A DNA stretch of 64,000 nt, from assembly GCF_004382795.1 (NCBI RefSeq), contig NZ_SMSG01000001.1, forward strand, positions 248,001 to 312,000, given 5' to 3'. Position numbers and translations under genes: made by a program. Positions within the stretch are counted from its first letter, which is position 1; each line of letters opens with the position of its first letter. This DNA is from Cumulibacter soli (lineage in GTDB: Bacteria > Actinomycetota > Actinomycetes > Mycobacteriales > Antricoccaceae). Of the stretch, positions 17,206 through 35,786 are shown one piece after another. The notes under the pieces were generated by a model. That model worked only from the letters and a program-made list of their open reading frames with translations, had not been told where the DNA came from and ran no database searches.

Positions 17206-18762
17206 CTAGCCCACGAACTGCGTGGCCTTGGCCACCAGGTCAAGCAGCGGTCCGGGGAACACACCGAACAGCACGGTCAGCGCGGTGGTCACCCAGATGA
17301 CGACGTCCGTGGAGGTACCCGGCTCTTCGATGAGTGCGACGTCCTCTTCCGGCGCATGGAAGTACATCAGCACGATCAACCGCAGGTAGAACACCGCAGT
17401 CACCGCGCTCAGCAGCAGCGCGACAACGACCAGCCAGGCGTAGTCGGCCTCGATCGCGGCGCTGAATGCCTGGAACTTACCGATGAAGCCGGCGGTCAAC
17501 GGGATACCGGTCATCGACAGCATCAGGATGGTCATGATGCCGGCCAGCAACGGCTTGCGGCGACCCATCCCCTTCCAGTCAGACAATCGCGACGATTCGC
17601 CGTCCTGGCGGCGGACCAGGCTGACGCACGCGAATGCGGCGATCGAGCTCAGACCGTAGGTGATGATGTAGAACATCACGGCACTCACGCCGGACTCGGT
17701 GTTGGCCAGCACCGCGACCAGGATGAACCCGGCGTGGGCGATCGACGAGTACGCCAGCATCCGCTTGAGGTCGGTCTGCGCGATACCGAACAGACCACCG
17801 ACGAGCATCGACACGATGGCGAACGCGGCCAACACGGGCTGCCACTGCGTGGGTACGGCGGTGTACCCGATGTACAGCACGCGCAGCAGCGCCACGAACG
17901 CGGCCAACTTCGTCGCCGCGGACATGAAGCCCGCGATCGGGGTCGGCGAGCCCTGGTAGACGTCCGGCGTCCACTGATGGAACGGCGCGATACCCGCCTT
18001 GAAGAACAAGCCGACCAGCAGTAAGCCCAACCCGATCAGCATCAACGGGTCTTGCCCGAAGTTGTTGGTCGTTTCGCTGAAGATGTCCCGCAGGTCGACC
18101 GAGCCGGCGTAGCCGTAGATCAGCGCGATGCCGTAGATGAAGAAGCCGGAGCCGAACGAGCCAAGCAGGAAGTACTTGACCGCGGCCTCCTGCGACAGCA
18201 GGCGGCGCCGACGGTTCAACCCGGCGATCAGGTACAGCGGCAGCGAGAAGACCTCGAGCGCGATGAACATGACGATCAAGTTGTTGCTCGCCACGAAAAT
18301 CATCATGCCCGCGATCGCGAACAACGACAGCGGGAAGACCTCGGTTTGCACGCGCTGTGATGCCAGCAGCGCGCGATCGGCGCGGGAGCCGACCGGCAGC
18401 GCGGCTTCAGCCACGAAGTGCGACACGCGGTTATTGCCGACCTTGTCCAGGCTGCGGTCCGCGTAGAGCATGGTCGCCAACAGGCCGAACACCAGCAACG
18501 CAGCCATACTCAGCAGCGCGGGCGCATCGATCGCAATCGCGCGGCCAAGGGTCAACGTATGCGTGGAGCGCTCGGCAAAGATGGCGATCAACGCGGCGAA
18601 AATCGCCACGACGCTGAGGCCGACCTGCGATGGGAATCGCGCCGCACGCGGTGCGAACGCCTCCACGAGGACGCCGATGCACGCGGCAGCCAGCATGATC
18701 AATATCGGCGACAGCGCCGAGTATGCGATCGACGGGAGCTCAATCGCGGCTAGGTGGTTCAC
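17206..18762 (-). CDS. nuoN: NADH-quinone oxidoreductase subunit N
   Basis: A 518-residue Mrp-antiporter-type membrane subunit of complex I, with about fourteen helices forming a proton channel. The key segment FKAGIAPFHQWTPDVYQGSPTPIAGFMSAATK carries the conserved Lys and His. LYLIAGLNRRRRLLSQEAAVKYFLLGSFGSGFF has the family Lys on helix 7. YSSIAHAGF is also conserved. The ATG overlaps the nuoM stop by four bases. Final membrane subunit of the nuoA-N operon. Confidence 0.96.
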   Translation of the reverse strand: MNHLAAIELPSIAYSALSPILIMLAAACIGVLVEAFAPRAARFPSQVGLSVVAIFAALIAIFAERSTHTLTLGRAIAIDAPALLSMAALLVFGLLATMLYADRSLDKVGNNRVSHFVAEAALPVGSRADRALLASQRVQTEVFPLSLFAIAGMMIFVASNNLIVMFIALEVFSLPLYLIAGLNRRRRLLSQEAAVKYFLLGSFGSGFFIYGIALIYGYAGSVDLRDIFSETTNNFGQDPLMLIGLGLLLVGLFFKAGIAPFHQWTPDVYQGSPTPIAGFMSAATKLAAFVALLRVLYIGYTAVPTQWQPVLAAFAIVSMLVGGLFGIAQTDLKRMLAYSSIAHAGFILVAVLANTESGVSAVMFYIITYGLSSIAAFACVSLVRRQDGESSRLSDWKGMGRRKPLLAGIMTILMLSMTGIPLTAGFIGKFQAFSAAIEADYAWLVVVALLLSAVTAVFYLRLIVLMYFHAPEEDVALIEEPGTSTDVVIWVTTALTVLFGVFPGPLLDLVAKATQFVG

Positions 18763-20459
18763 TTGCCGTCTCCGTTCGCGGACGCGTTGACGGGGGCGCC
18801 CGGATTATCGATACCGACATCGGTCTGCAGGGTCTGCTCAACCGCAGGGTTGATGATGTCCAACACCGGCTGCGGGTAGAAGCCCAGAATGAACACGATC
18901 GCGACCAAGGGGCCCAGGACCCACGACTCGCGCGCCGTCAGGTCACCGAACGCGCGTTGACGAACCGACTTCTTGGTCCGCTCCTTCACCGCGACACCGG
19001 CGTCGGACTCCAGGACTTCCTCATCGATGACGGCATCGTGATCGAGGTCGTCGTCCGTGTTCGGCACGACTCCGCGGGCGGGTCCGTGCAGCATCCGCTG
19101 GACGAGCCACAGAATGTACAGCGCGGCCCACACGATGCCGATGGTCGCCAGAATCGTGAACACCGGCTCACGGCCGTACGAGCCGATCAACACCAGGAAC
19201 TCCGATACGAACGAGTTCGTACCTGGCAACGCAAGGCCAGCGAGACCGGCGATGAAGGTGATGCCAGCCAGCCAAGGGGCCACTCGGAACACGCCACCGT
19301 AATCGGAGATCTTGCGGCTGCGACCGCGGGCGATGATCATGCCGACCGCGAGGAGCAACAGGCCGGTGGAGATGCCGTGGTTGAACATGTACAGCACGGC
19401 GCCGGCCAACGACTGCGTGGTGAACGCGAAGATGCCCAACGCGATATAGCCGAAGTGCGCGATCGAGGTGTAGGTGACGAGTTTCTTCACGTCGTCCTGC
19501 CCGATCGCCTGGAACGCGGCGTAGAAGATGCCGATCACTGCCAGCACCAGTACCAGCGGCGCCAGATCACGCGATGCGTCCGGGAACAGTCCGAGACAGT
19601 AGCGCAGGAAGCCGTAGGTGCCGACCTTGTCCAGGATGCCGACCAGCAGCACGGTGGTGCCGATCGGGCCTGCACCGCCGGAGGCCGGCAGCCAGGTGTG
19701 CAGCGGTACCAGTGGTGCCTTGATTGCTAGCGCAATGAAGAAGCCGAGGAACAGCCAGGTCTGTGTCGTGCTGGACAACTCCAGTTGGCTCAGCGCCTCC
19801 CAGGAGAAGGTCGCCTCCCCCAGCTGATCCTTGCTCACGACGTACAGGCCGATGACGCTGGCCAGCATCACCAGACCACCGACGAGGCTGTAGATGATGA
19901 ACTTCATCGCGGCGGCGCGACGACGCGATGCGCCGTACCCACCGATCAGGAAGTACGTCGGAATCAGCATCGCTTCGAAGAAGACGTAGAACAGGAACAC
20001 GTCGGTCGCGGCGAACACGCCGATCATGAAGACCTGCAGCACCAGGATCCAGGCGAAGTACCGGGCCTGGTTACCGACGGCCGGGATCGAGTCTTCATCG
20101 TCGCCGGGCTGGTTGATGTCATCGCCGAGCGAGCGACGCTTCCACGATGCGATCATCACGATCGGCACCAGGATCGTGGTCAGCAAGATCATCAGCAGCG
20201 CGATGCCATCGACACCGAGCGAGAAACTGACGCCGAGCGAGTCGATCCAACCGACGCTGGAGGTGAACTGCAGTCGTGCACCGTCGGCGTCGAAGGTGAG
20301 GACCATCGCGATGGCGATCAACAGTTCTAGCAGCGCGAAACCGACGGCTGCCTTCTTGGCAATCTGCTCCCCCGCCTCGTCGCGGCCGACCACGGCCACC
20401 ACGATCGCGCCGAGTAACGGCAGCAGGATCAGCAGGAAGAGGAAAGGAAAGTTGCTCAC
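18759..20459 (-). CDS. nuoM: NADH-quinone oxidoreductase subunit M
   Basis: A 566-residue antiporter-like subunit of the complex I membrane arm. The conserved channel Glu is in FFEAMLIPTYFLIG. The Lys/His pair is in IKAPLVPLHTWLPASGGAGPIGTTVLL, and YTSIAHFGYIALG follows. The C-terminal part has an unusually polar stretch, about residues 455-500, rich in Asp and Glu (NTDDDLDHDAVIDEEVLES), before the last helix. It overlaps nuoL and nuoN by four bases each. Confidence 0.96.
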   Translation of the reverse strand: MSNFPFLFLLILLPLLGAIVVAVVGRDEAGEQIAKKAAVGFALLELLIAIAMVLTFDADGARLQFTSSVGWIDSLGVSFSLGVDGIALLMILLTTILVPIVMIASWKRRSLGDDINQPGDDEDSIPAVGNQARYFAWILVLQVFMIGVFAATDVFLFYVFFEAMLIPTYFLIGGYGASRRRAAAMKFIIYSLVGGLVMLASVIGLYVVSKDQLGEATFSWEALSQLELSSTTQTWLFLGFFIALAIKAPLVPLHTWLPASGGAGPIGTTVLLVGILDKVGTYGFLRYCLGLFPDASRDLAPLVLVLAVIGIFYAAFQAIGQDDVKKLVTYTSIAHFGYIALGIFAFTTQSLAGAVLYMFNHGISTGLLLLAVGMIIARGRSRKISDYGGVFRVAPWLAGITFIAGLAGLALPGTNSFVSEFLVLIGSYGREPVFTILATIGIVWAALYILWLVQRMLHGPARGVVPNTDDDLDHDAVIDEEVLESDAGVAVKERTKKSVRQRAFGDLTARESWVLGPLVAIVFILGFYPQPVLDIINPAVEQTLQTDVGIDNPGAPVNASANGDGK

Positions 20460-22405
20460 GCGAACCTCACCGCCAGTAGCGCGATGATCACAGCGACCAC
20501 GCCCACGAGCATTGACAATGCATAGCTACGAACCGCTCCGTTCTGGATGCGGCGTACGCGCGTCGAGGTAGCGCCCACGCCACCCGACAGTCCGTTGACG
20601 GCGCCGTCTACACCGTGGTCCTCGATCCACAGCGAGGCGCGGGTAAGCGCCAGGCCCGGCTTCTCGAACACCGCTTCGTTGAACTTGTCGCCGTACAGGT
20701 TGGCGCGAGCGGCGGCCACCAGTGGCGAGACCCTCGCCGGGGCAACCTTCGGGATCTCACGCTTCGGGCCGAAGAGCAGGACGCCCAGTGCGACACCGCC
20801 GACGATGAAGACCAGCGTGATGGCCAGCAACACGCCCGACGGAATCGGGCTCTCCTCCATCGCATGGTGCAGGTCGATCGGAGCACCCAGGCTGGTAGCT
20901 AGCCAGTCCGGCAGCACCGCGGCCAGCCACACACCACCGCCGAGCGAGCCGATCGCCAGGATCATCATCGGAACCGTCATGGTCGCGGGCGACTCATGCG
21001 GGTGGACGTCGTCGTCCCACCGTGGCTTACCGAAGAAGGTCATGCACATCAGTCGGGTCATGTAGAACGCCGTCAGACCGGCGCCGAGCAGCGCCGCACC
21101 GCCGAGCAGCCATCCTTCGACCCCACCGCGTGCGAACCCGGCCTCGATGATCGGGTCCTTAGAGAAGTAACCCGACAGCGGCGGAATGCCGATCAACGCG
21201 AGGTAGCCGAGCGTGAAGGTCACGAACGTGATCTTCATGTGCTTCCACAAGCCGCCGAACTTGCGCATGTCCACTTCGTCGTTCATGCCGTGCATGACCG
21301 AACCGGCACCGAGGAACAGACCGGCCTTGAAGAAGCCGTGCGCGACGAGGTGCACGATCGCCAGGGCGTATACGCCGGGGCCAAGACCCACAGCGAGGAA
21401 CATGTAACCGATCTGCGAGACGGTCGAGTACGCCAACACCTTCTTGATGTCGTCGTACGCACAACCGGCCACGCAGCCATACAGCAACGTGATGGCGCCC
21501 ACGATCGTGACGACCAGGCGCGCCGTATCGGTCGCGTCGAAGATCGGGTTCGAGCGGGCGATCAGGTAGACGCCTGCGGTCACCATCGTTGCCGCGTGGA
21601 TCAGCGCCGACACCGGAGTCGGACCTTCCATCGCGTCCGGCAGCCACGCTTGCAGCGGGACCTGACCGGACTTGCCGCAAGCACCGAGCAACAGCAGCAG
21701 GCCGATCGCGGTGACCAGTCCGCCGGTGAGCGTGCCGACGGAGTTGAACACGTCGGCGTACTGAGTGCTGCCAACCTTGGTGAACATGATGAAGATGGCG
21801 ATCGCCAGACCGACGTCACCGACGCGGTTCATGATGAACGCCTTCTTCGCGGCGGTAGCCGCAGCCGGACGCTTGTTCCAGAACGAAATCAGCAGGTACG
21901 AGGCGACACCGACGCCTTCCCAGCCGAAGTACAGCGCGACGTAGGAATTACCGAGCACCAGCAGCAACATCGCGGCGACGAACAGATTCAAGTACGCGAA
22001 GAACTTGCGGCGTTCGGGGTCATGGCTCATGTAGCCGATCGAATAGATGTGGATCAACGATCCGACACCGGTAATCAGCAGCACGAACGTGATCGACAGC
22101 GGATCGAGCAAGAGACCGGCGTCGATCTTGAGATCACCCGAAGCCGTCCAGGTGAACATGTGCAGGTTCTGCGCCCGCGAGTCGGTGCCCTTGAGGTGGA
22201 AGAAGAGGAACAGCCCGAGCGCGAACGACAGGATGGGCATAGCGCAACCGAGCAGGTGGCCCCACGCGTTCGCGCGTTTGCCGAGCAACAGCAGCACGAT
22301 AGCGCCGGCCGCCGGCAACGCGATCAGCAGCCACATGAGGTTGAACGGTGCACCCGCGGTGACCGCGTCAACCTGATCGGCGGCGAGATTCATAGAGGTC
22401 GTCAC
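20456..22405 (-). CDS. nuoL: NADH-quinone oxidoreductase subunit L
   Basis: A 649-residue antiporter-like subunit with the long lateral helix at its C terminus. Signatures include YFGWEGVGVASYLLISFWNKRPAAATAAKKAF, GKSGQVPLQAWLPDAMEGPTPVSALIHAATMVTAG and YSTVSQIGYMF. It is the distal proton channel of complex I. The track start is GTG at 22405; the ATG at 22393 (MNLAADQ) is an equally possible start. The gap to nuoK is nine bases, and the C terminus overlaps nuoM. Confidence 0.96.
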   Translation of the reverse strand: MTTSMNLAADQVDAVTAGAPFNLMWLLIALPAAGAIVLLLLGKRANAWGHLLGCAMPILSFALGLFLFFHLKGTDSRAQNLHMFTWTASGDLKIDAGLLLDPLSITFVLLITGVGSLIHIYSIGYMSHDPERRKFFAYLNLFVAAMLLLVLGNSYVALYFGWEGVGVASYLLISFWNKRPAAATAAKKAFIMNRVGDVGLAIAIFIMFTKVGSTQYADVFNSVGTLTGGLVTAIGLLLLLGACGKSGQVPLQAWLPDAMEGPTPVSALIHAATMVTAGVYLIARSNPIFDATDTARLVVTIVGAITLLYGCVAGCAYDDIKKVLAYSTVSQIGYMFLAVGLGPGVYALAIVHLVAHGFFKAGLFLGAGSVMHGMNDEVDMRKFGGLWKHMKITFVTFTLGYLALIGIPPLSGYFSKDPIIEAGFARGGVEGWLLGGAALLGAGLTAFYMTRLMCMTFFGKPRWDDDVHPHESPATMTVPMMILAIGSLGGGVWLAAVLPDWLATSLGAPIDLHHAMEESPIPSGVLLAITLVFIVGGVALGVLLFGPKREIPKVAPARVSPLVAAARANLYGDKFNEAVFEKPGLALTRASLWIEDHGVDGAVNGLSGGVGATSTRVRRIQNGAVRSYALSMLVGVVAVIIALLAVRFA

Positions 22406-22414
22406 ATTCGTCCC

Positions 22415-22714
22415 TTAGTACTTCAGCAAGTTCGCATCGTCGACCGAGGCCGAACGGCGGGTACGGAAGATGGCCATGATGATCGCCAGACCCACGACGA
22501 CTTCCGCCGCGGCAACCACCATCACGAACAGCGCCATAACCTGGCCTTCGAGCTGACCATGCATGCGGCCGAACGTCACCAGGGTCAGGTTCGCCGAATT
22601 GAGCATGAGCTCGATCGACATGAACACCACGATGGCGTTTCGGCGGACGAGCACGCCGATCGTGCCGAGCGTGAACAGGATGGCCGCGAGGACCAGATAA
22701 GCGACGGGGTTCAC
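22415..22714 (-). CDS. nuoK: NADH-quinone oxidoreductase subunit K
   Basis: A 99-residue three-helix membrane subunit. The two membrane Glu residues that carry protons are visible in [13 protein letters not shown] and [13 protein letters not shown]. The length is exactly that of the family. Start ATG overlaps the nuoJ stop by four bases. It works with NuoA, NuoJ and NuoH near the quinone site. Confidence 0.96.
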
Positions 22715-23529
22715 GCGTCCTGCCCTTCCTGCGTGGTGGTCTTGACCTGCCGCAGCGTGCCATCAGATGCACGGCCGATCAGGTGTCCTCGGGACATCGG
22801 CAGCATTTCAACGCCGGTGGACTGGCTCTCCGGGGCAATCGTGCCGTCAGGCAGCAAGGCCGGCGTAGCGACCGAGTGTGAGGTCGCGAATACGCCCGGT
22901 CCGGCGAGCGGATGTGGCGCATCGGATGCGAACCGCTCCAGCGCACGCGCCTTCTGTCCCTTGGGCTTGCCGCGCTCGATGTGTGCGAGCACCATCGCGC
23001 CGACGGTGGCGGTAATCAGCAACGCGCCCGTCAGTTCGAACGCGAACAGGTAATCGGTGAAGATCAGCGCGGCGAGCCCCTCGACGTTTCCGCCGGCGGC
23101 AGCGGTCGCGTCATTGAGGCCGAGCGAGGGCACACCGTGCGTGGACTTGTAGACGACCACGCCCACCAGGCTGGCGAAGCCCACGCCGAACCACGCGGCG
23201 TACGCGCGTTGTCCGCGCAACGTCTCGATCAGCGAGTCGGACGCGTCGCGCCCGACCATCATCAGCACGAACACGAACAGAATCATGATCGCGCCCGTGT
23301 AGACGATGATCTGGGTGACCCCGAGGAACGGTCCCATCTGCGCCATGTAGAACACGCCCAGGCTGAGCATCGTCGCGACCAGCCACAGCGCCGAATGGAT
23401 CGCGTTGCGGGAGAACAGCATCCCGATCGCGCCGAGCACCGCGACCGGCGCCATTACGTAGAACAGCGCCGTCTCGCCGCTGGACATCACCCCCGGCGCG
23501 TTCGCCAGGATGGTCGTCAGTTCGGTCAT
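22711..23529 (-). CDS. nuoJ: NADH-quinone oxidoreductase subunit J
   Basis: A 272-residue membrane subunit with five N-terminal helices. [24 protein letters not shown] is the conserved third helix with the pi-bulge region. The roughly 100-residue hydrophilic C-terminal tail (after [11 protein letters not shown]) is longer than in E. coli and is common in actinobacteria. It overlaps nuoI and nuoK by four bases each. Confidence 0.95.
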
Positions 23530-24089
23530 TTAGCCGACTCCTCCTGAGTACGCAACGAGCCGTTCTCGAAGTCGCGCAGTAACTCCGGCCCGTTCACGTA
23601 GTAATCCTTCTCGTCCTCGCCGAGGCGCATCGGATGCGGTGGCTGCTCCATCCCCGGCAACAGCGGGGCCAGCAGATCCTCCTTGGTCCAGATGAGGTCC
23701 TGACGGTTGTCATTCGCGAGTTCGTAGTCGTTGCTCATGGTCAGCGAACGTGTCGGGCACGCCTCGATGCACAGTCCACAACCGATGCACCGCAGGTAGT
23801 TGATCTGGTAGATCTTCCCGTAGCGCTCACCGGGCGAAAAGCGCTGCTCGTCGGTGTTGTCGCCACCTTCGACGTAGATCGCGTCAGCGGGGCAAGCCCA
23901 TGCGCACAACTCGCAACCGACGCACTTCTCCAGGCCGTCCGGGTGACGATTGAGTACGTGCCGGCCGTGATAGCGCGGCTGAACGTCAACCTTGACTTCC
24001 GGGTATTTCAGCGTCGCACGCTTACGGAACATGGTCGTGAAGGTCAGCCCGAAACCCTGCAGGGGGCCGGGCAGGAAGCTCTTAGCCAT
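23526..24089 (-). CDS. nuoI: NADH-quinone oxidoreductase subunit I
   Basis: A 187-residue 8Fe ferredoxin-like subunit carrying clusters N6a and N6b, which relay electrons to N2 in NuoB. Both ligand motifs are complete: [23 protein letters not shown] and [39 protein letters not shown] precedes the first motif, as is usual. It overlaps nuoH by eight bases and nuoJ by four. Confidence 0.96.
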
Positions 24090-25413
24090 CGGAGGACTCC
24101 TTCGCTGAGATCGCGCCGGACGACGTACGACCGCTCACCCGGGGGGTGCGCCCACCGCTGGTGGGCCGCGCGCCCGGCACGGCGAGGTTCATTGGCGGGA
24201 TCGGGAACGCGGGGTTGGCGTTGATGTTGTCGATCGGTTTCTCCGGGCGCTTGAAGTAGAGCACGGCGCCCGCGATCACCAGCACGGCGAAGATTCCGGA
24301 AGCGATCCAGCCCCAGGTCGGCATCTTGTCGCCGTTCTGCAGCATGCCGGTGCGGATCAAACCGAGGAACATCGTCCACGCCAGAGCGGCCGGGATCAGT
24401 ACCTTCCAGCCCAACGCCATGAACTGGTCGTAGCGCATACGCGGCAGGGCGCCTCGCAGCCAAACGAAGAACGACAGGAACAGCGCGGTCTTGCCCAGGA
24501 ACCAGAGCATCGGCCACCAGCCGGAATTCGCGCCCTCCCAGAACGTGTCTATCCAGAACGGCGCTCGCCACCCGCCGAAGAACATCGTCGTCGCCAGCGC
24601 AGACACAGTCGCCATATTGATGTACTCAGCGAGGAAGAACATCGCGAACTTCATCGAGGAGTACTCGGTGTGGAAGCCACCGACTAGTTCGGACTCGGCC
24701 TCGGCGAGGTCGAACGGCGCGCGGTTGGTCTCGCCCACCATCGCGATCACGTACAGGATGCAGCTGATTGGCAGCATCCAGAAGAACCAACCGCGGATCC
24801 CCTGCGCAGCAACGATTTCCGAGGTCGACATGGTGCCGGCCCACATGAAGACGCCGACGATCGCCAAGCCCATCGCGATTTCGTAAGAAATAATCTGCGC
24901 GGTCGAGCGCAAACCACCGATCAAGGGATAGGTCGAACCGGACGACCAACCGGCCAGGATGATGCCGTAGGCGCCGACCGACGCGCACGCGAGGATCACC
25001 AGGACGCCGACCGGGGTGTCGGTGAGTTGCAGCGGCGTCTGTTCACCGAACATGCTCACCATCGGGCCGACCGGAATGACCGAGAACGCCATATATGCCG
25101 GTACCGCGACGATCACCGGCGCGATCCAGTACACCGGTTTGTCGGCCATCTTGGGGATGACCTCTTCCTTGAAGGCCAGTTTGATGCCGTCGAACAGCGA
25201 CTGCAGCAGAGCCCAGGGGCTGTTGCGGTTCGGTCCGGTCCGGTTCTGCATGTAGCCGATGAGCTTGCGTTCCCACACGATCATCGCCAACACGATCAGC
25301 ACCAGCAGCACGAAAACGCCGACAGCCTTGATCAGCGTGATCCAGAACGGATCGTGCCCGAAATCCTCAAGGGTGGGTACGTCCGCCGGCAGTGCAGCAG
25401 CGAGCGAGTACAT
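24082..25413 (-). CDS. nuoH: NADH-quinone oxidoreductase subunit H
   Basis: A 443-residue membrane subunit that forms much of the quinone chamber. [30 protein letters not shown] carries the conserved Arg/Glu-rich loop; [31 protein letters not shown] is the family hallmark. About eight helices precede a soluble C-terminal extension of roughly 45 residues rich in Arg, Ser and Gly. It overlaps the nuoG stop by one base and nuoI by eight. Confidence 0.96.
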
Positions 25414-27851
25414 CAGTTCTGACCTCCGGCCGAGATACGTACAGCGGAGCCGATCGCCACTTGCAGCTCGCGCCGCACATGGCTACCTGGTGAGTTCATC
25501 GGGAGCCACACGACACGATCGGGCATATCAGTGACTTCCAGCGGAAGGCTCACCGCGCCATGGTCGCTGCCGACGGTCACGATGTCGCCGTCGACCGCAC
25601 CGATCTCGGCAGCGGTATCCGGCGAGAGGCGCACGATCGAGGGGCGCGCGGTGCCTTGCAGGTGCTTTTCCTCCACCTGCAGGCTGCCGGAGTCGACGAG
25701 TCGGCGCCACGAGGACAGGATCGCCGATCCAGCTGCTGGCTGCTCCGGCAACGGTGCGGCCGTCGTGTGGATCGGGTTCGGCCGGCGCTCGGTTGAACCG
25801 AGCCGATCGATTTCCGCGATGGCCTGCGATGCAGTCAGCACACCCAGCTCGATATTCAGCTCGTCAGCGAGCATGCTCAGCACGCGCGCATCGGACGGTA
25901 CGCCGACGGAGTGGATCGTCGCCTCGAATGGACGGCGACGTCCCTCCCAGCTGATGAACGTGCCGGACTTCTCGACCACGGGCGCGACCGGGAGAACGAC
26001 GTCCGCCCATTCCGTCGCGGCGGACGGCAGCATTTCCAGGCTGATCACGAACTTCGACGCCTTCATCGCGTCGATAGCCAACTGAGGGTCTGGCAGGTCG
26101 TACGGGTCGACACCGCCGATCAACAAACCGCCGAGGTCGCCGTCGCGGGTCGCCTCCAGAATGCCGGTCGTGTCACGACCGACTTCGCCGGGGATCGACG
26201 TACGCCACACCGTCTCCAACTCGGCCCGAGCACCGATGTCGGCCACCAGTCGTCCGCCGGGCAACATCGACGGCAGCGCGCCGGTATCGATCGCGGCCCG
26301 CTCGCCTGCGCGACGTGGAATCCAGGCGATACGGACACCGTCTCGCAACAGTGCCGAGGTGGCCCGCAACGCGCCGGGAATCTCGGCCAGACGTTCACCG
26401 ACGAGCACCAGGCAGCTGCCGTCGGCAATCGCCTGCGCCGCTCCGGCACCAGCACCACCTGCGGTTCCGTCGCCGATCGCGGTGAGGACAGCGGCCTCGG
26501 CGCCCGGCGTGGTCATGATGACCTCGGCGTCCAGCTTGTCGGTGGCCGGCGTCGCAAACGGCGCGACCGAGTAGACCTTCAGGCCGTTCTTGCGGACGGC
26601 CTTGCGCAACCGCAGGAAGACCGTCGATGCCTCTTCTTCCGGCTCCAGCCCGAGCAAGATGACTGACTTCGCACGATCGAAGTCGGCGAACGTAACGGCA
26701 CCGTCTTCGAGGCCGACACCGGCGACGTGAGTGGCGAGGAACTCCAGCTCCTCGTCGCTGTGCGCACGGGCGCGAGCGTCGATGTCGTTGGTGCCGAGCA
26801 CTACGCGGGCGAACTTCGCGTAGGCGTAGGCATCCTCGGCAGTCAATCGCCCACCCGGCAGGACGCCGACTCCGCCGGCCTGCTGCGCAGTGCGCAGCCC
26901 GGCCGCAGCGACCTCGAGGGCCTCGGGCCAGGACGCGGCAACCAACTGGCCGTTCTGATCGCGCACCATCGGTGTCATGATCCGCTCGTTGCTCTGCGCA
27001 TAGTTGAACGCGAAGCGGGTCTTGTCGCTGATCCACTCCTCGTTGACGGCCGGATCATTACCGGACAAGCGGCGGGTGACACGCTTGCGCCGCCAGTCCA
27101 CGCGGATCGCCGCGCCACTCGACTCGTGCTCGTCGACGACTGGCGTCGACTGTAGGTCGAACGGGCGTGCACGGAACCGGTAGTCAGCGCTGGTCAGCGC
27201 GCCGACCGGGCAGATCTGGATCGTGTTACCGGAGAAGTAGGAGTCGAACGCCTCGCCGTCGCTGATCGATACCTCTTCGTGCGACGTCCGCTCGAACAAC
27301 TCGATCAAGGGGTCACCGGCTACCTGGGCCGCGAATCGGGTGCAACGCGCACACTGCACGCAGCGTTCGCGATCAAGCAGGATTTCGGTCGACAGCGGCT
27401 TCGGCTTCGGCCAGGTCCGCTTCTGCTCCACCATCCGCGATTCGCCACTACCGGTGGACATCGACTGGTTCTGCAGCGGGCACTCGCCGCCCTTGTCGCA
27501 GATGGGGCAGTCCAACGGGTGGTTGACCAGCAGCAGCTCCATGATGCCCCACTGGGCGCGGGCGGCCACGTCGCTGGTGAGCTGGGTCTTCACGACCATG
27601 CCCTCGGCGATCTCCATCGTGCAGGAGGCCTGAGGCTTGGGCATCGGGCGACCGCCCATTTCCACCTCGACCATGCACTGGCGGCACGCGCCGACCGGGT
27701 CCAGCAGCGGGTGGTCGCAGAACCGCGGGATGTTGATCCCGACCTGCTCTGCCGCCCGGATGATGAGCGTGCCCTTGGGCGCGGTTACCGAGATGCCGTC
27801 GATCGTCAGCGTGACGGTCTCGACCACCTCTGCGGTCTGGTCAGTAGTCAT
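25413..27851 (-). CDS. nuoG: NADH-quinone oxidoreductase subunit G, lacking the N7 cluster ligands
   Basis: An 812-residue peripheral-arm subunit. The N-terminal 2Fe-2S domain ([16 protein letters not shown]) supplies N1b. [20 protein letters not shown] gives the His/Cys ligands of N5, and [10 protein letters not shown] with the later ICPVGAL gives N4. A molybdopterin-oxidoreductase-like domain follows. The off-pathway N7 cluster, normally held by C-x2-C-x3-C-x27-C, is gone: the four positions are Asp240, Glu243, Ala247 and Ser275 at exactly conserved spacing, while the surrounding residues (EH..SG, NEEW..DK) are kept. Electron flow to N2 should still be possible because N7 lies off the main chain. 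It lies four bases after nuoF. Confidence 0.95.
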
Positions 27852-27854
27852 GAC

Positions 27855-29174
27855 TTAGCGAACTCCCGCGGCGGCCGGCTCGGCGTCGGCGCGCTTCTCG
27901 TCGGTGGCGTCGACGCCGCCGTTGGCGATGGCATCGACGTACTCCTGCCGGAAATGCTGGATCGAGGCCTGCAGGCAACCAACACCACCATCGGCCAGCG
28001 CGCAGAACGAGCGGCCGCCGATCGTGACGGTGATGTCCAGCATCTGGTCGATCTCGGACTCGAGCGCCTCACCGTCTTCGAATCGGCGCAAGATTCGCTC
28101 GAGCCAGTAGTTACCTTCGCGGCACGGCGTGCACTTGCCGCAGGACTCGTGCGCGTAGAACTCGATCCACTTGCGAGTGGCGCGCACGTTGGAATCACTA
28201 TCGTCGAAGATCATCACAGCGCTGGTGCCATTCATCGACCCCGCTGCGGCGACCGCATCGAAGTCGAGCGGTACGTCAAGGTGCTCATCGGTGAAGCACG
28301 GAGTCGACGACCCGCCTGGCGTCCAGAACTTGATCGTGTGGCCGTCGCGGATGCCGCCGGCCATCTCGAGCAGTTCACGCAGCGTGGTGCCCATCGGTGC
28401 TTCGTACTGCCCAGGGTTCTTCACCCGACCGGACAGCGAGTAGATGGACGTTCCCGGGCACTTCTCCGGGCCCATCTCCTTGAACCAATCGGCGCCACCG
28501 AGCACGATCCCGGGAACGGAAGCGATACTCCCGACGTTATTCACCACAGTGGGCGATGCGTACAGGCCGGCAACCGCCGGGAACGGCGGCTTGAGACGCG
28601 GCTGCCCCCGGCGTCCCTCCAGGGACTCCAGCAGCGCGGTCTCCTCGCCGCAGATGTATGCGCCCGCACCGGCGTGTACGACGATGTCGAGGTCGAACCC
28701 CGAGTCGAGGATGTTCTTGCCGAGATACCCCGCGGCGTACGCCTCCTTGACGGCGTTCCGTACCCGGCGGATCGCGTGGATAGCTTCGCCGCGAATGTAG
28801 ATCGCGCAGTAGTTCGAACGGATCGCGTAGGAGGAGATGATGCAGCCCTCGATCAGCGCATGCGGATCGAGCATCATCAGCGGCAGATCCCGGCACGTGC
28901 CCGGTTCGCCTTCATCGGCGTTCACGACGAGGTACTTCGGCTTCGCGCCAGGTCCCTCGGTGCCCTGCGGCACGAATGACCACTTCAGGCCGGTCGGGAA
29001 GCCCGCACCGCCTCGTCCGCGCAGGCTGGAAGCCTTCACCAACTCGATCAGTTCGTCCGGGGTGGCCTTCAACGCCTTCGGAAGTGCCTTGTAGCCGTCA
29101 AGGGACTCGTACGTCTCGATCGTCCACGGCTGGTCGGCGTCCCAGCGGTTGCTCAACACAGGAGTCAGTGGCAT
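27855..29174 (-). CDS. nuoF: NADH-quinone oxidoreductase subunit F
   Basis: A 439-residue subunit that binds NADH and FMN and carries cluster N3. The nucleotide site is LRGRGGAGFPTGLKWSFV; NADEGEPGTCRD and AYICGEETALLESLEG belong to the FMN pocket. N3 ligands are in HESCGKCTPCREG plus the Cys of GGVGCLQAS. Start ATG overlaps the nuoE stop by one base. The C terminus carries a short extra tail (DEKRADAEPAAAGVR). Confidence 0.97.
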   Translation of the reverse strand: MPLTPVLSNRWDADQPWTIETYESLDGYKALPKALKATPDELIELVKASSLRGRGGAGFPTGLKWSFVPQGTEGPGAKPKYLVVNADEGEPGTCRDLPLMMLDPHALIEGCIISSYAIRSNYCAIYIRGEAIHAIRRVRNAVKEAYAAGYLGKNILDSGFDLDIVVHAGAGAYICGEETALLESLEGRRGQPRLKPPFPAVAGLYASPTVVNNVGSIASVPGIVLGGADWFKEMGPEKCPGTSIYSLSGRVKNPGQYEAPMGTTLRELLEMAGGIRDGHTIKFWTPGGSSTPCFTDEHLDVPLDFDAVAAAGSMNGTSAVMIFDDSDSNVRATRKWIEFYAHESCGKCTPCREGNYWLERILRRFEDGEALESEIDQMLDITVTIGGRSFCALADGGVGCLQASIQHFRQEYVDAIANGGVDATDEKRADAEPAAAGVR

Positions 29175-29866
29175 TACTTGTTCTCCTCCTTAGCGGCGAT
29201 TGGCGTGTTGTAGTCCGCCGCCGGCGCAGTTTCGCCGCGTTCGCGAGCGAGTTTCAGACCACGCAACGAAGATTCGATGTTGTCCACCGAAGCAACCTTC
29301 GCGGCCACCAGTTCGTCGTCGAGGACGCCGGCGAGTTCCAGTTCGGCCTCACGGAACGACGTAATTTGCGCACCGCGGGTGGGCTTCGGTTTCTGCCCGG
29401 CACGCAACGACGCGACTAGTTCCTTCGCGGATTGCACAGACTGCTTGTCGAAGAATTCGTAGTTCACGGTCACCACTGGGGCGTAGTCGCAAGCGGCCAG
29501 GCATTCAGCGTGTTCGAGCGTGATCGTGCCGTCGTCGGTGGTCTCGTTATGTCCTACGCCCAACTCATCGGAGAGCTCGGCGTAGATCTTGTCGCCGCCG
29601 AGCATCCCGCACAACGTGTTCGTACATACGCTCACGAGGTGTTCACCGGTGGGACGACGCTTGTACATGGTGTAGAACGTCGCCACGCCGCCAACTTCGG
29701 CCGCGGAGATGCCCAGTACCTCGGCGCAGAACTCGATTCCGGCCTGACTGACGTAACCTTCCTCGCCCTGCACCAGATGCAGCATCGGCAGCAACGCCGA
29801 ACGCGACTGGGGGTAGAGGTCGATGATCTTCTGCGCGAGCGCGCGCGTGTTCTCGTCAAGTGCCAT
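29174..29866 (-). CDS. nuoE: NADH-quinone oxidoreductase subunit E
   Basis: A 230-residue thioredoxin-fold subunit with the 2Fe-2S cluster N1a. Ligands are in CTNTLC and CLAAC (C-x4-C and C-x3-C). I set the start at ATG 29866 ([10 protein letters not shown]), which overlaps the nuoD stop as TGATG; the open frame has an additional in-frame start at 29878 inside nuoD. The C-terminal 60 residues after the thioredoxin fold are an actinobacterial-style extension of unknown role. Confidence 0.95.
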   Translation of the reverse strand: MALDENTRALAQKIIDLYPQSRSALLPMLHLVQGEEGYVSQAGIEFCAEVLGISAAEVGGVATFYTMYKRRPTGEHLVSVCTNTLCGMLGGDKIYAELSDELGVGHNETTDDGTITLEHAECLAACDYAPVVTVNYEFFDKQSVQSAKELVASLRAGQKPKPTRGAQITSFREAELELAGVLDDELVAAKVASVDNIESSLRGLKLARERGETAPAADYNTPIAAKEENK

Positions 29867-31194
29867 CAGCGGTCGCAACCTCCCATGACTGGATCCAGTG
29901 AGGCCACCGACGCGATGACGTCGGCCAGCAGACCACCCTCGGACAGCGCAGGCAGCGCCTGCAAATTGATAAAGCTGGGTTCACGCAGGTGCACGCGCCA
30001 CGGGCGGGTGCCGCCGTCGGAAACCACGTGCGCACCGAGTTCGCCGCGCGGGCCCTCGATCGCCACGTATGCCTGGCCGGCTGGAACGCGGAAGCCTTCG
30101 GTCACCAACTTGAAGTGGTGGATCAACGCCTCCATGGACTGGCCCATGATGTGCTTCACGTGCTCGAGCGAGTTGCCCATGCCGTCGGCGCCGATGGACA
30201 ACTGGGCGGGCCACCCGATCTTCTTGTCCTCGACCATCACCGGGCCGGGACCTTCGGACTTGAGGTGCTCGAACGCCTGGCGGCAAATCTTCAACGACTC
30301 GCGCATCTCGGCGACGCGTACGACGTACCGGGACCAGCAGTCGCCGGCGTCATGCGTCGGAACCTCGAAGTCGTACTCGTCGTAGGTCAAGTACGGTTCG
30401 GTCTTGCGCAGGTCCCACCCGAGACCGGCGGCGCGCAGCATCGGACCGGTCACGCCTACCTGCAGACAGCCCGGAACGTTGAGGAAGCCGACGCCCTTGA
30501 GGCGGCGGATCCAGATCGGCTGACCGGTGAGCAGTCGCTCGACACCGTCGATCTCGTCGTCCATCTTGTCGGCCCACCAGGTGAAGGCCTCATCGAAGTC
30601 GGCTGCCAGATCCTGCGCTACCCCACCCGGACGGATGTACGCGTGGTTCATCCGCAAGCCGGTGATGTTCTCCAGGATGTCCAGACAGTAGTTGCGTGCT
30701 CGGAATCCGTTCGTCGCGGCGGTGGTCGAGCCGAGCTCCATACCGCCGGTCGCCAGCCAGATCCAGTGCGAGGAGATACGGCAGATCTCCATGGTGATGA
30801 CGCGGATGATGTCGGCGCGGATCGGTACGTCGGCGTTCAGCAGGCGCTCGACGCTCATCGCGTACGACGCCTCGGTGAACAGCGGCGACAGGTAGTCGGC
30901 GCGAGTCAGGAAGGTGGGCGCCTGCGTGTAGGTGCGGTACTCGACGTTCTTCTCGATACCGGTGTGCAGGTACCCGACGACGGCGCGCGCCTTCTCCACG
31001 GACTCACCGTCGAGGTCGCACACGATGCGCAGCACGCCGTGGGTCGAGGGGTGCTGTGGGCCGAGGTTGATGACGAGTTTCTCGTCCTCCAACGGATCGC
31101 CGGTCTCGTCGAACAGGTCGTCCCAGTCGCCGCCGGTAACGGTGTAGACCTTGCCCTCGTTCGTCTGCCGTGAATCGGCGGTGGGGGTGCTCAT
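29866..31194 (-). CDS. nuoD: NADH-quinone oxidoreductase subunit D
   Basis: A 442-residue 49-kDa-type subunit lining the quinone pocket. [14 protein letters not shown] near residue 47 contains the quinone-site His residues. Further hallmarks are [21 protein letters not shown] and the C-terminal [22 protein letters not shown] 31194 has GGGAGG upstream, fits family length, and follows nuoC by 31 bases, whereas the open frame extends 31 codons further into untranslated-looking sequence. It overlaps nuoE. Confidence 0.96.
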
Positions 31195-31225
31195 CGCGTC
31201 CTCCCAGAAGTGATGATGGTTCGCA

Positions 31226-32260
31226 TTACTTGTAGGACCTCCGCTGATCCGGCGGCGGAATGCTCGCGCCCTTGTACTCGACGTCAATGCCGCCGAGCGG
31301 ATAGTCCTTGCGCTGCGGGAATCCGTTCCAGTCGTCAGGCATCAAGATGCGGGTGAGCGCATGATGCCCGTCGAAGATGACGCCGAACATGTCGTACGTC
31401 TCACGCTCCTGCCAGTCTGCAGTCGGGTAGACCTCGCTGACCGTTGGCACGTGCGGATCCTCGACCGTCGTCGCAACCTCGAAGCGCACCCGGCGACGGA
31501 AGGTCATCGAGGTGAGGTGATAAACAACGTGCAATCGCTGCTTGCGGTACTCATCCTGCTGCGGGTCACCGGTAGACGACACTCCGCCGTCGCCGCGGTA
31601 GTAGTCGACGCCGGACAGTGAGGACAGCAGCTCGAATCGCAAACTGGAGTTGTCGCGGGCAATCTGCATGATCTTCGCGATGTGCGACTTCTCGACGTAG
31701 AAGGTGATCTCGCCACGGTCGACCATGGTCGCCAGGTGCGCCTTGTTCCACTGCGGATACGCCTTGGCGAAGATGTCCGCGACCTCGTCGAACCATCCAC
31801 CGTACGGCCGCGGCGACGAAACACTCGGGATTCCGGAGCCGGCTTGGGTGACCAAACCGCCCATACCGGAGGTATCGCCGCTGCCCTCGACACCGAACAG
31901 TCCGCGGCGACCGGAGGCCTGCGGCGCGGGCGTTGGGTCGAACTCGGAGCGAGCGTGCGAGACGAACGCGGTCGGATCGGTGACGCGCGCGGCTACCTCA
32001 TCGCCTTCGGCTGCCCCCTGCGGTTTGGAGCCCTCCGGGGCCGCGGCATCCTTCGCGTCGGAGGCCTGGCCATCGTCGGCCGGCTGCTCAGCGGCGTCGG
32101 TGGCCGGGGTCGCCTCGGTGGCGGTTTCGTCCCGCTTCGCGGACGAGCCGGAGCCCCGACGCTGGCGCCGCGCGGACGGACGCGGAGGGGCCGCGTTTTC
32201 CTTGGTGTCTTCGCGGGTCTCGTCCTTGCCCGAATTCGGGTTAGGCGTGCTGATGCTCAT
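31226..32260 (-). CDS. nuoC: NADH-quinone oxidoreductase subunit C with long acidic N-terminal extension
   Basis: A 344-residue peripheral-arm subunit. The conserved 30-kDa domain occupies roughly residues 150-335 and includes [39 protein letters not shown] and [21 protein letters not shown]. The first 110 or so residues are low-complexity and rich in Ala, Glu, Asp, Pro and Lys, so they are probably disordered. Longer NuoC N termini are frequent in actinobacteria, though this one is at the long end. It overlaps the nuoB stop by four bases. Confidence 0.94.
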
Positions 32261-33000
32261 CGGCGACCTTCAACTTCTTTGCGCGTGGGCGAGGCGAGCT
32301 CGCGCTGCTTCGCGGCCAGTTTCTTCTGCGGGGAGTCCTGCTCGAGCATGAACTGCTTCTCGCGACCTTCGCCCTTGGCCTTGATCCAGTCCTCGCGCAA
32401 CGTGTCGCCGGACTTGCGCTTGGTGGGATTCCACGACTTGTGGAACGGGGTGTAGCCGGCGCGACGCACGCTCGAGGGCATATCGACGTGCAGGTTCGCG
32501 TTGCGCTCGGCGACCTCTTTCGCGCGCTTGGCATTGATCGGCTCGTGCAACACCTTGTACTGCAGTTTCAGGATTGCATCGAGCAGCATTTCCGGTCGCG
32601 GTGGGCATCCGGGCAGGTAGATGTCGACCGGAACAATATGGTCGACGCCCTGCACCACCGAGTAGTTGTTGAACATGCCGCCCGAGCTGGCGCAGACGCC
32701 CATCGCGATGACCCAGCGCGGTTCGGGCATTTGGTCGTAGACCTGACGGACGACCGGGGCCATTTTCTGCGTCACGCGGCCGGCGACGATCATCAGGTCG
32801 GCCTGACGTGGCGTGGCGGAGAACCGCTCCATACCGAAGCGCGCAAAGTCGTGCATCGGTCCACCGGTCGTCATCATCTCGATTGCGCAGCACGCCAGAC
32901 CGAAGGTCGCCGGCCACATCGAAGCCTTACGCGCGTAGTTGCCGAGGGCCTCGACGGACGTCAGCAGCAGTCCACCGGGAAGTTTCTCTTCAATACCCAT
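32257..33000 (-). CDS. nuoB: NADH-quinone oxidoreductase subunit B
   Basis: A 247-residue subunit carrying cluster N2, the direct electron donor to quinone. Ligands are the tandem Cys pair in [11 protein letters not shown], the Cys in [13 protein letters not shown] and the Cys in [13 protein letters not shown] basic C-terminal tail of about 75 residues follows the core domain. nuoA lies 15 bases upstream. Stop overlaps the nuoC start (ATGA). Confidence 0.97.
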
Positions 33001-33015
33001 TGTCTTGCGACCTCA

Positions 33016-33378
33016 CTAATTCCAGTTGAGTCCGCCGCGACGCCATTCGTAGGCGTAAGCGACCGTGACGAGCGCGATGAAGATGGTGATCTGGATGAGA
33101 CCAAACCAGGCCAATTGCCCCATCGCGACGGCGAACGGGTACAGGAACAACATCTCGACATCGAAGATGATGAACAGCATCGCCGTGAGGTAGTACTTAA
33201 TCGGGAAACGCCCGGAGCCTGACGGCTGCTCCACCGGCTCGATACCGCACTCGTACGGGTCGTACTTCGCCTTGTTATAGCGCTTGGGCCCCACGATCGT
33301 CGCTAGACAGACCGAGAAGACCGCGAACCCGAGGGCGAGTACACCCAGCGTGATCAGTGGGACGTAAATGTCGAGCAC
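33016..33378 (-). CDS. nuoA: NADH-quinone oxidoreductase subunit A
   Basis: A 120-residue three-helix membrane subunit and the first gene of the nuo operon. KYDPYECGIEPVEQPSGSGRFPIKYYLTAMLFIIFDVE is the family signature, with the Cys-containing loop that contacts NuoH and NuoD and the Asp/Glu of helix 2. The start is GTG at 33378, preceded by a GGTGG run. The 119-base region upstream should contain the operon promoter; I could not assign it firmly. Confidence 0.96.
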   Translation of the reverse strand: MLDIYVPLITLGVLALGFAVFSVCLATIVGPKRYNKAKYDPYECGIEPVEQPSGSGRFPIKYYLTAMLFIIFDVEMLFLYPFAVAMGQLAWFGLIQITIFIALVTVAYAYEWRRGGLNWN

Positions 33379-33497: not shown

Positions 33498-34817
33498 TCA
33501 TGACCGCACCGCCGGGGTCATTTTTTGCAATCCGATCAGGATCCGGTCCATCGCATCACCGTCGCGGGGGTCGGTGAGGTTGGCCATCATCTTCAGGACA
33601 AACTTCATGAGTGTCTTGCGCGGCAGGCCGTACTTGGTCGCCGCGCGCATCACGTGCTCGTTACCGATCAACTTCACGAACACACCGCCGAGGCGGTAGT
33701 AGGAGCCCAGGTGATCAGCCATCGCCGAGTTGTAGCCCTCGAGGGCGCGTTCACGGGCTGAATCCGTGCGACGTCCGTACGCCTGTGCCACGGCCTCGGC
33801 GGCGAGTTGGCCGGTTTCCATCGCATACGCAATGCCCTCGCCGTTGAACGGGTTGATCGCACCGGCGGCATCGCCGACGAGCAGCAGCCCATCCTTGTAG
33901 TGCGGGTGTTTGTTGAAGCCCATCGGCAGGCCACCACCACGGGTCGGCCCCGTGGCGTTCTCCTCGACGTATCCCCACTCTTCGGGGAGCCCGCCGAGCC
34001 AGCGCACCAACAGATCGCGGTAGTTGAGGTCCTGGAAGGACGCCGAGGAGTTCAAGATGCCGAGACCGACGTTAGACGTACCGTCGCCGACACCGAATAT
34101 CCAGCCATACCCGGGAAGCAGGCGCTTGTCGCCGCCGGGAAGTTCCTCCCAGAGCTCCAGCCAGGACTCAAGGTAGTCATCGTCGTGTCGCGGAGACTTG
34201 TAGTAGCGGCGTACGGCGACACCCATCGGACGCTTTTCGTCGCGGAGAATGCCGGCCCCCAGGCCCAAACGGCCGCTCATCCCGTCGCAGGAGATGACCA
34301 TCGGCGCCCGGTACTCACGCAGTTCCTTACCGGGCCCCACCTTGGCAGTGACTCCGACAATGCGGCCGCTGGGATCGTTGATAGCGCCGGTGACGTTGCA
34401 ACTCTCCACTAACTTCGCGCCGACCTGCTGGGCGCGGCGAGCAAGTAGTTCGTCGAAGTCCGATCGCGGGCGCACCAGCCCGTAATCGGGGAAGGACGCC
34501 AGTTCGGGCCAGTCGAGTTCGAGACGAACATTGCCGCCGATCACACGCAGACCCTTGTTGCGGATCCATTTGCCTTCCAGGTCGACTCCGTCGAGACCGC
34601 TGGCGCCCTCGGTCGTGTCGATCCCCATCCCGATGATGCTCTTCACCGCGCGGGGGGTGAGGCCATCGCCGCAGACCTTGTCGCGCGGGAACGAGGACTT
34701 CTCCAGCAGCAGCACCTCAAGGCCTTGGAGAGCCGCGTAATAGGCGGCGGCCGATCCGCCGGGGCCGGCGCCGACGACGATGACGTCCGCGTCCTGCTGC
34801 GCGCTAATTGCGCTCAT
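33498..34817 (-). CDS. menJ: Geranylgeranyl reductase family flavoprotein, probable menaquinone reductase
   Basis: A 439-residue FAD-dependent reductase. The Rossmann motif VVGAGPGGSAAAYYAALQG is at the N terminus, KVCGDGLTPRAV is the family motif and LLVGDAAGAINPFNGEGIAYAMETG is the second FAD motif. Mycobacterial MenJ, of this family, saturates one isoprene unit of the menaquinone side chain. The position here, between the nuo operon and menG, makes that role the best guess, although archaeal-type lipid or chlorophyll side-chain reductases share the fold. Start ATG; the 129-base upstream gap contains an IdeR-like sequence. Confidence 0.85.
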   Translation of the reverse strand: MSAISAQQDADVIVVGAGPGGSAAAYYAALQGLEVLLLEKSSFPRDKVCGDGLTPRAVKSIIGMGIDTTEGASGLDGVDLEGKWIRNKGLRVIGGNVRLELDWPELASFPDYGLVRPRSDFDELLARRAQQVGAKLVESCNVTGAINDPSGRIVGVTAKVGPGKELREYRAPMVISCDGMSGRLGLGAGILRDEKRPMGVAVRRYYKSPRHDDDYLESWLELWEELPGGDKRLLPGYGWIFGVGDGTSNVGLGILNSSASFQDLNYRDLLVRWLGGLPEEWGYVEENATGPTRGGGLPMGFNKHPHYKDGLLLVGDAAGAINPFNGEGIAYAMETGQLAAEAVAQAYGRRTDSARERALEGYNSAMADHLGSYYRLGGVFVKLIGNEHVMRAATKYGLPRKTLMKFVLKMMANLTDPRDGDAMDRILIGLQKMTPAVRS

Positions 34818-34946: not shown

Positions 34947-35687
34947 TCAGCGCGCGCTGGCGGTCGATTTCGGCTTCTTCGCCCGGTGCAGTGCAACGAT
35001 TCCGCCGGTCAGATTGCGCCACTGCGCCGCCGTCCAACCCGAGTCATTAATCAACTCGGCGAGAGCTTGCTGGTCGTGCCACGCCTTGATTGAGTCAGCC
35101 AGATATTCATAGGCCTCCGGGTTACTGCTCGCCCGGCGCGCCAGTTGCGGGATCAGCTTGAGCGCAGCGTTGTAGTACGCCACGCGAAGCGGCGCCCAGC
35201 TGGGTCGGGAGAACTCGCACACGACGAGGGTTCCGCCGGGGCGAACCACACGCGCCATCTCAGCGAGCGCATCGCCGGTCCGCACGACATTTCGCAGGCC
35301 GAAGGAGATCGTCGCCGCGTCAAACGCCTCGTCCGCGAACGGGAGGTGCAAGGCGTCGCCGGCCAGCAGCGGCACGTTCGCACGCTGCACCGCCGAGGTG
35401 TGTTTACCCGCGGCGAGCATGCCGAAGGTCAGGTCGGATCCGACGGCGTACGCCCCGGAGCGCGCGAGTTCGACCGTGGACACGCCGGTACCGCAGGCGA
35501 GGTCCAGCACTCGCTGTCCGGGCTGCAGTTCGAGCGCGTTTCGGGTCGCCCGGCGCCACACCCGATCCAGACCGCCGGACTGCAAGGTGTTCATCAGGTC
35601 GTAGCGCTTGGCGACGCCTTCGAACATCGCCTGCACTTCCTGCGGCTTCTTCTCTAGCGTGGCGCGAGTGGCATGTTGGTCTGGCAC
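34947..35687 (-). CDS. menG: Demethylmenaquinone methyltransferase
   Basis: A 246-residue class I SAM-dependent methyltransferase of the UbiE/MenG family, which adds the methyl group to demethylmenaquinone in the last ring-modifying step. The SAM motif [16 protein letters not shown], the family signature [26 protein letters not shown] and SFGLRNVV are present. I chose GTG 35687 (reading V-P-D-Q-H). The sequence TATAGT ends seven bases before it, so the message may be leaderless. The open frame reaches 35738, which would put that promoter-like hexamer inside the gene. Confidence 0.92.
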
Positions 35688-35750
35688 GCACGCGACTATA
35701 GTCGCCGGGTGCGGTCCGACGGGCCTCGACGGCGGCATACAAGCCGGACG

Positions 35751-35786
35751 AATTAAGACGTCGCCGCCCCGCTGCGACGGCTAATT
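35751..35786 (-). terminator. Terminator hairpin at the end of the serpin gene
   Basis: AATTA and CGTCGC on one arm pair with GCGACG and TAATT on the other across a 9-base loop. The structure begins within the serpin stop codon region and precedes the menG promoter area, so it should stop transcription from the serpin gene. Confidence 0.5.

Follow-up and report, generated by a model that had tools for sequence, protein, structure and literature searches.

The nuoG gene of Cumulibacter soli raises the question of whether a bacterial complex I has lost its iron-sulfur cluster N7 and, if so, when, by which steps and with what in its place. The gene lies in the window, by which we mean the whole stretch of 64,000 nucleotides that was analysed. 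According to the accessible parts of three papers (PMC5123574, PMC7613608, PMC10212512), N7 lies off the electron path, is dispensable for activity and is required for stability in E. coli. The accessible text of two of them (PMC7613608, PMC10212512) regards the cluster as probably a vestige, so that the view given in the initial annotation, of N7 as a relic outside the main path, is indeed in print. The bovine enzyme lacks N7, as stated in the accessible part of PMC12348165. By EPR, an N7 signal has reportedly not been observed in intact complex I.

The window encodes a complete 14-subunit respiratory complex I (Table 1). NuoA, B, C, D, E, F, H, I, J, K, L, M and N each reached at least one curated NCBIfam cut-off. 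NuoG scored 1216.6 bits against NF005895 (cut-off 802) and was also above the cut-off of TIGR01973, and its residues 234-282 matched Pfam PF22151, the 4Fe-4S domain of the N7 place.

Table 1. Features of the complex I operon and of the N7 site of NuoG, in window coordinates
Feature	Position	Strand	Basis
nuoN, M, L, K, J, I, H (rest of complex I operon, downstream)	17206..25413	minus	NCBIfam
nuoG, complex I subunit G, 812 aa	25413..27851	minus	NCBIfam, Pfam, 8e9g_G matches
nuoF, E, D, C, B, A (rest of complex I operon, upstream)	27855..33378	minus	NCBIfam
N7 ligand 1, Cys to Asp240 (GAC)	27132..27134	minus	translation, alignment
N7 ligand 2, Cys to Glu243 (GAG)	27123..27125	minus	translation, alignment
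N7 ligand 3, Cys to Ala247 (GCG)	27111..27113	minus	translation, alignment
Linked change T251V (GTG)	27099..27101	minus	alignment columns
Linked change N274I (ATC)	27030..27032	minus	alignment columns
N7 ligand 4, Cys to Ser275 (AGC)	27027..27029	minus	translation, alignment
Linked change G278T (ACC); Cys here in both intermediates	27018..27020	minus	alignment columns

The best solved relative of the window NuoG was chain 8e9g_G (E 2.4e-274, query residues 9-809), which we take to be the Mycolicibacterium smegmatis chain. Because this chain aligns gap-free through the segment, the register of the N7 site is certain. The N7-containing 8e9g_G reads CEHCASGC...NEEWNCDKG, whereas the window NuoG reads DEHESSGA...NEEWISDKT; the motif C-x2-C-x3-C-x27-C is present in the closest solved relative by sequence and absent here, with unchanged spacing. 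The initial annotation had claimed that all four cysteines were lost with spacing and segment kept, and that mycobacterial NuoG has the motif; both claims were borne out, the second if the chain is that of M. smegmatis. The ligands of the other clusters are kept, namely C45, C56, C59 and C77 of N1b, H111, C115, C118 and C124 of N5, and C164, C167, C170 and C214 of N4. All 12 are also present in the related proteins of genomes G001, G002 and G072, and they are invariant across the 62 N7-bearing rows and the 22 rows of a large N7-less clade in the alignment described below.

We also considered other cysteines occupying the N7 site, and rejected them: beyond the N1b, N4 and N5 ligands, the window NuoG has the lone C480. 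A second, N7-bearing NuoG in the same genome (G000) was likewise rejected, as there is a single full-length NuoG match there. Four other matches (30, 32, 31 and 25% identity), at two other places of this genome, cover stretches past query residue 254 and nothing earlier; our guess is that they are molybdenum enzymes. An assembly error is unlikely, because a separate genome, that of the congener G002 (NuoG 78% identical), has D, D, A and S at these places.

To place the loss, we read the site in related genomes. The family sample comprised five genomes: the window genome, its congeners G001 and G002, and G003 and G004 from other genera. Both G003 and G004 keep the four N7 cysteines, and their NuoG proteins are 68-69% identical to that of the window. 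G002 is N7-less (DEHDSSGA...EEWISDRT). The other congener, G001, is intermediate (CEHCSSGC...EEWISDKC), with three cysteines kept, the fourth replaced by serine and a new cysteine at position 278. In a genome of another family (G072, locus L158), the segment CEHCAGGD...EEWISDKC gives C/C/D/S plus Cys278, a partial N7 motif with Asp at the third ligand place.

The order sample comprised 200 genomes, 190 of them with NuoG. The three-cysteine block CEHCxxGC, counted per genome, anywhere in the genome, and blind to the fourth ligand (G001 passes), was present in 182, and the 10 genomes without NuoG also lacked it. Eight NuoG-bearing genomes were without the block (G000, G002, G005, G032, G072, G114, G128 and G160); G005, G032, G114 and G128 are N7-bearing, with CEGC or CELC, and the NuoG of G160 is a fragment whose match reaches residue 211 at most. 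Direct reading gave four cysteines in all 26 further order loci (L093-L118). The proposal that N7 was lost in a lineage that usually keeps it therefore stands, with the block in 182 of 190 NuoG-bearing genomes, but the loss is not confined to the window genome, since G002 is N7-less as well. In the class sample of 296 genomes, the pattern was present in 223 and absent in 73, including the window genome. NuoG was found in 52 of the other 72 pattern-negative genomes, and the N7 site was read in 44 of these 52. Forty of the 44 are N7-less (19/20 from family f32, 19/26 from f37, G372 and G404), three are nonetheless N7-bearing (G205, G232 and G435), and the NuoG of G371 (L221) is a fragment in which the fourth cysteine is the one visible. 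The order thus usually keeps N7, as had been supposed, but within the class the loss is not restricted to the window lineage.

In a search for more intermediates, the pattern EEWIxD(K/R)C was rare, with matches in 2 of 397 order genomes and 0 of 388 class-sample genomes. The broader EEWIxD(K/R) matched one of 17 genomes in the family of G072, which was G072 itself, and none of the other 16. In the phylum sample, EEWI(S/T/C and few others)D(K/R) had matches in 10 genomes out of 346; in nine of them the residues are Cys and Gly, and the tenth is the window. This pattern presumes EEWI and is therefore no survey of N7 loss: the N7-less G220 (EEWVTDKD) is in the sample and unmatched. Two further observations concern NuoG matches: one genome of family f7 has two near full-length NuoG matches (G010:C1:1891937-1894267 and 2174458-2176767), and the NuoG match at G187:C50:219635-222016 carries one in-frame TGA.

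The large N7-less clade of actinobacteria consists of families f32, f37, f51 in part, and f54. Like the window NuoG, its members lack N7 and have Ser or Thr at the fourth ligand place and, in most rows, Val251 and Ile274. Unlike the window, they mostly have Ala at the first ligand place (18/22 rows; range A/S/T/G) and Asp at 278; the second ligand place holds Asp, as in G002, where the window has Glu243, and position 247 is split between Ser and Ala. A further difference is a single cysteine that 19 of the 22 rows carry at the position aligned to window residue 245, which lies between the second and third ligand places. The NuoG tree and the NuoD/E/F tree both put this clade well away from the family of the window. 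The N7-less NuoG of G404 (L220, f54) lies in a matched frame about 70 residues longer than usual, and a NuoG-matched frame of 1055 residues in G327 (L205) is about 240 longer than usual. The N7-bearing NuoG of G416 (L208, f51) is on a long branch, and the NuoD/E/F of this genome adjoin those of the N7-less G372.

Mitochondria and alphaproteobacteria offer the other comparison. A scan of genome contigs with the window NuoG returned 576 relatives, the best 80 of which are titled as Alphaproteobacteria or members of that class, or as Proteobacteria or Pseudomonadota. The N7 set was absent in all of these best 80 of 576, a set biased by the use of EEWISDKT as one search peptide; in 79 of them all four ligand places are free of Cys, and L034 has a single one (D/D/C/S). 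Twenty-five aligned NuoG rows of alphaproteobacterial type share 35-40% identity with the window NuoG, against the 68-69% of N7-bearing G003 and G004, and three aligned mitochondrial chains share the alphaproteobacterial-type N7-less site. NDUFS1 and NuoG of this type resemble the window protein in having Asp and Ser at the first and fourth ligand places, Ile274, Thr278 and, in most cases, Val251, and their complex I likewise keeps the main-chain cluster ligands. The window differs in having Glu at ligand 2 (Asp in G002) and in having Ala at ligand 3, where that type has Ser. Against the mitochondrial-kind Asp/Asp/Ser/Ser, the D/E/A/S of the window is identical at two of four places and the D/D/A/S of G002 at three. 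The window also differs from that type in the actinobacterial residues in between, in its recent origin and in having an intermediate congener. Common descent with the mitochondrial-type site was not what we found: in NuoG and NuoD/E/F trees of actinobacteria only, the closest relatives of the window are N7-bearing or intermediate actinobacteria or the N7-less G002.

To compare the sites column by column, we aligned 88 actinobacterial NuoG rows with 14 loci from the best 80 of 576 alphaproteobacterial-type relatives (the 14 alphaproteobacterial rows here and below). The fragment L221 of G371 and L243, a separate C-terminal piece of the NuoG of G001, were dropped beforehand, and frames longer than 830 residues were cut at 830. 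Four N7 cysteines are present in 62 of the 88 rows. At column 251, these N7-bearing rows have Thr in 53 and Val in 6, and Val is found in the window, in G002, in 20/22 rows of the N7-less clade and in 10/14 alphaproteobacterial rows. At column 274, they have Asn in 55 and Ile in 4, and Ile occurs in the window, G002, G001, G072, 21 of the 22 clade rows (Val in the remaining one) and all 14 alphaproteobacterial rows. At column 278, all 62 N7-bearing rows have Gly, the intermediates G001 and G072 have Cys, all 22 clade rows have Asp and all 14 alphaproteobacterial rows have Thr. Column 243 is Asp in G002, in the whole N7-less clade (22/22) and in all 14 alphaproteobacterial rows. Measured against the N7-bearing consensus, 20 columns are altered alike in the window and G002, and six of these columns are at the site (240, 247, 251, 274, 275 and 278). 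The N7-less clade departs at 240, 243, 251, 274, 275 and 278, and also at 247, where it is split; its departures at 406, 409 and 733 are not shared by the window and G002. The same seven positions are altered in each full N7 loss.

The alphaproteobacterial consensus differs from the N7-bearing consensus at 103 columns, 12 of which lie within 236-282. Both the window and G002 carry the alphaproteobacterial residue at five of these 12 site columns (240, 251, 274, 275 and 278) and at none of the other 91, a localised convergence with a Fisher p of 9e-6, in a test that takes columns as independent and in which 251, 274 and 278 weigh more than the ligands, because the N7-less groups were picked for ligand loss. 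The N7-less clade carries the alphaproteobacterial residue at 243, 247, 251 and 274, all within the 12 (p 1.1e-4). N7-bearing rows do so at a mean of 0.21 of the 12 site columns, with a maximum of 2. Outside the site, the window singly has 3 alphaproteobacterial matches and G002 has 1, against a mean of 1.23 and a maximum of 6 in N7-bearing rows. Judged from the residues, the window replacements together with T251V, N274I and G278T appear to copy the alphaproteobacterial and mitochondrial site, a resemblance that the initial annotation did not mention. At column 410 (codon 26622-26624, minus strand), 84% of the N7-bearing rows have Ile, and the window, G002, G001, G072 and 59% of the N7-less clade have Thr, which is not the alphaproteobacterial consensus. 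The shared changes are thus not all at the N7 site, and column 410 is possibly a linked change outside it.

The intermediates bear on the order of the steps. Ile274 and Ser275 are common to the three congeners and G072, and one-base codon steps are possible for N274I (AAC-ATC), C275S (TGC-AGC) and G278C (GGC-TGC). Both intermediates combine Cys278 with the original Cys240 and Cys243, and G072 has Asp247; the window and G002 are changed further, to D/(E or D)/A with T251V and Thr at 278. Because Ser275 stands in the intermediates with Cys240 and Cys243 still there, the fourth ligand was probably altered before the others. The initial annotation had asked whether the loss was coordinated; it was not one coordinated event, since G001 has lost the fourth ligand alone. 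The loss in the window NuoG is real and recent, and the protein comparisons place its origin within the window's genus, apparently by steps. At least one more large group of actinobacteria, as well as Alphaproteobacteria and mitochondria, lost N7 with the same result.

How often this happened was read from trees. There were four changes between the N7-bearing and other states in a NuoG tree without the N7 columns and five in the NuoD/E/F tree, from which L191 was excluded. The window genus, G072 and the large N7-less clade fall apart in both. The number of losses within that clade is unsure: in the NuoD/E/F tree, G404 groups with N7-bearing families and the N7-bearing G416 with the N7-less G372. 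For G404, this position leaves either a separate N7 loss or a transferred nuoG, and for G416 either retention or re-acquisition of N7. Within the genus, a tree of 27 genes (10,537 columns), the frames of which were picked by us from 69 reciprocal matches with the remainder taken as shadow frames or doubtful, pairs G001 with G002 and leaves the window outside (99.6/99). The grouping of the window with G002 was rejected by these data (AU p 0.007). Support for G001 with G002 in 14-row trees was 75/62 (NuoD/E/F) and 84/73 (NuoD/E/F/G), and NuoG alone is almost evenly split, with 7 sites for window with G002 and 6 for G001 with G002. A single N7 loss in the genus, which we favoured at first, does not fit simply with the 27-gene tree, which implies that the first three cysteines were lost twice in the genus, or that there was some exchange or other history.

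An alternative to convergence is that recombination brought in the N7-less segment, either from the nuoG of an alphaproteobacterium or through transfer between G002 and the window and between G001 and G072. A single loss in the genus being at odds with the 27-gene tree speaks for it, as does the presence of the same replacement residues in the window and G002, with even the same codons at 240, 247, 251 and 278; moreover, G001 and G072 have the 24 nucleotides GAGGAGTGGATCAGCGACAAGTGC in common. However, the residues between the changed sites are actinobacterial and not the DVMDAVGSNIRVDSRG-like alphaproteobacterial ones. Furthermore, among codons for the same residue, the use of the same codon is not raised in the segment, for window and G002 (28/41 against 202/322 in the rest) or for G001 and G072 (25/36 against 178/255), which argues against a recent recombination tract. 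An old tract, or a very short one of a few codons, would still be compatible with these counts, and we consider import as a whole improbable.

It seems equally unlikely to us that N7 simply ceased to be of use, leaving its ligands to drift at random. Neutral decay of this kind would agree with the position of N7 off the electron path (accessible parts of PMC7613608 and PMC10212512) and with the variation at 240 (A/S/T/G) and 247 (S/A) in the other N7-less clade, but N7 is reported as necessary for stability in E. coli (accessible parts of PMC5123574, PMC7613608 and PMC10212512). In addition, the same few residues recur across separate lineages at 243 (Asp), 274 (Ile) and 275 (Ser/Thr), and there is no drift at 246, 250, 252, 270, 273, 276 or 279 in any group. 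Clusters and metals can have carboxylate ligands, and with two carboxylates, Ser275 and Thr278 the site remains polar. That its Asp, Glu and Ser residues now bind some other metal or cluster is nevertheless very improbable, given that the surroundings of the site are free of cysteine in both the window and G002, that Ala240 in 18 of 22 rows of the other N7-less clade would remove a ligand, and that ovine complex I with Asp/Asp/Ser/Ser has waters at the N7 place (accessible part of PMC8357420).

We regard as highly probable the reading that this is a complete complex I, that its NuoG is unable to bind the [4Fe-4S] cluster N7 by the known mode and has a polar pocket instead, and that this state was reached by a convergent, stepwise loss. 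According to the accessible part of PMC8357420, Cys228/231/235/263 of E. coli correspond to Asp229/Asp232/Ser236/Ser264 of the ovine enzyme, where three waters replace N7. By analogy, we infer that a hydrated polar pocket replaces N7 in the window NuoG: Asp240, Glu or Asp243, Ser275 and Thr278, with water, would take over the structural job of the cluster. This pocket would resemble the ovine one without being identical to it, as Glu243 and Ala247 stand against ovine Asp and Ser. An AlphaFold2 model from the window and the 25 alphaproteobacterial-type rows had a mean pLDDT of 51.9, and about 32 over the N7 segment, too poor for the site. With N7 off the path, main-chain electron flow in the N7-less complex I of the window would be unaffected. 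If few combinations keep the fold stable without the cluster, the same substitutions could have arisen independently in other Actinomycetes and in Alphaproteobacteria.

The likely first step would be a move of the fourth ligand from 275 to 278. Cys278 is present in both intermediates and in 0/62 N7-bearing rows, and is a candidate substitute ligand. Each intermediate then has four candidate ligands, C-x2-C-x3-C-x30-C in G001 and C-x2-C-x3-D-x30-C in G072, and a modified N7 in G072 may include an Asp ligand. A plausible scenario, somewhat short of probable, is that N7 persists in the intermediates in such a modified form, its fourth ligand displaced, and that the cluster was then lost and a mitochondrial-type polar set acquired, perhaps twice in the genus.

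Among open-licence papers, our literature searches found no N7 loss in Actinobacteria, no convergent N7 loss, and no repeated, convergent and stepwise loss with living intermediates; neither N7 nor the term NuoG appears in the accessible part of a survey of prokaryotic complex I (PMC12361115). From mitochondria, complex I without N7 is already known, and the convergence and the two intermediates are the point of specialist interest. Complex I of E. coli is reported to need N7 for stability, whereas mitochondria do without it, and our results suggest that the mitochondrial N7-less site is one of few workable solutions, not a historical accident. The coexistence of N7-bearing, part-way and N7-less NuoG in one small family is a natural experiment, with which one can test what substitutions make up for the missing cluster, in which order they came and whether the fourth ligand can move.

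A menaquinone neighbourhood flanks the nuo operon (window 16186-17202, 33498-34817, 34947-35738 and 38475-40133), with matches to polyprenyl diphosphate synthase, the geranylgeranyl reductase family, demethylmenaquinone methyltransferase and MenD. A frame of 469 aa (window 35781-37190, minus strand), which separates the genes for the methyltransferase and the MenD-like protein, has no NCBIfam match at 1e-15 and has matches in G001, G002 and G003.
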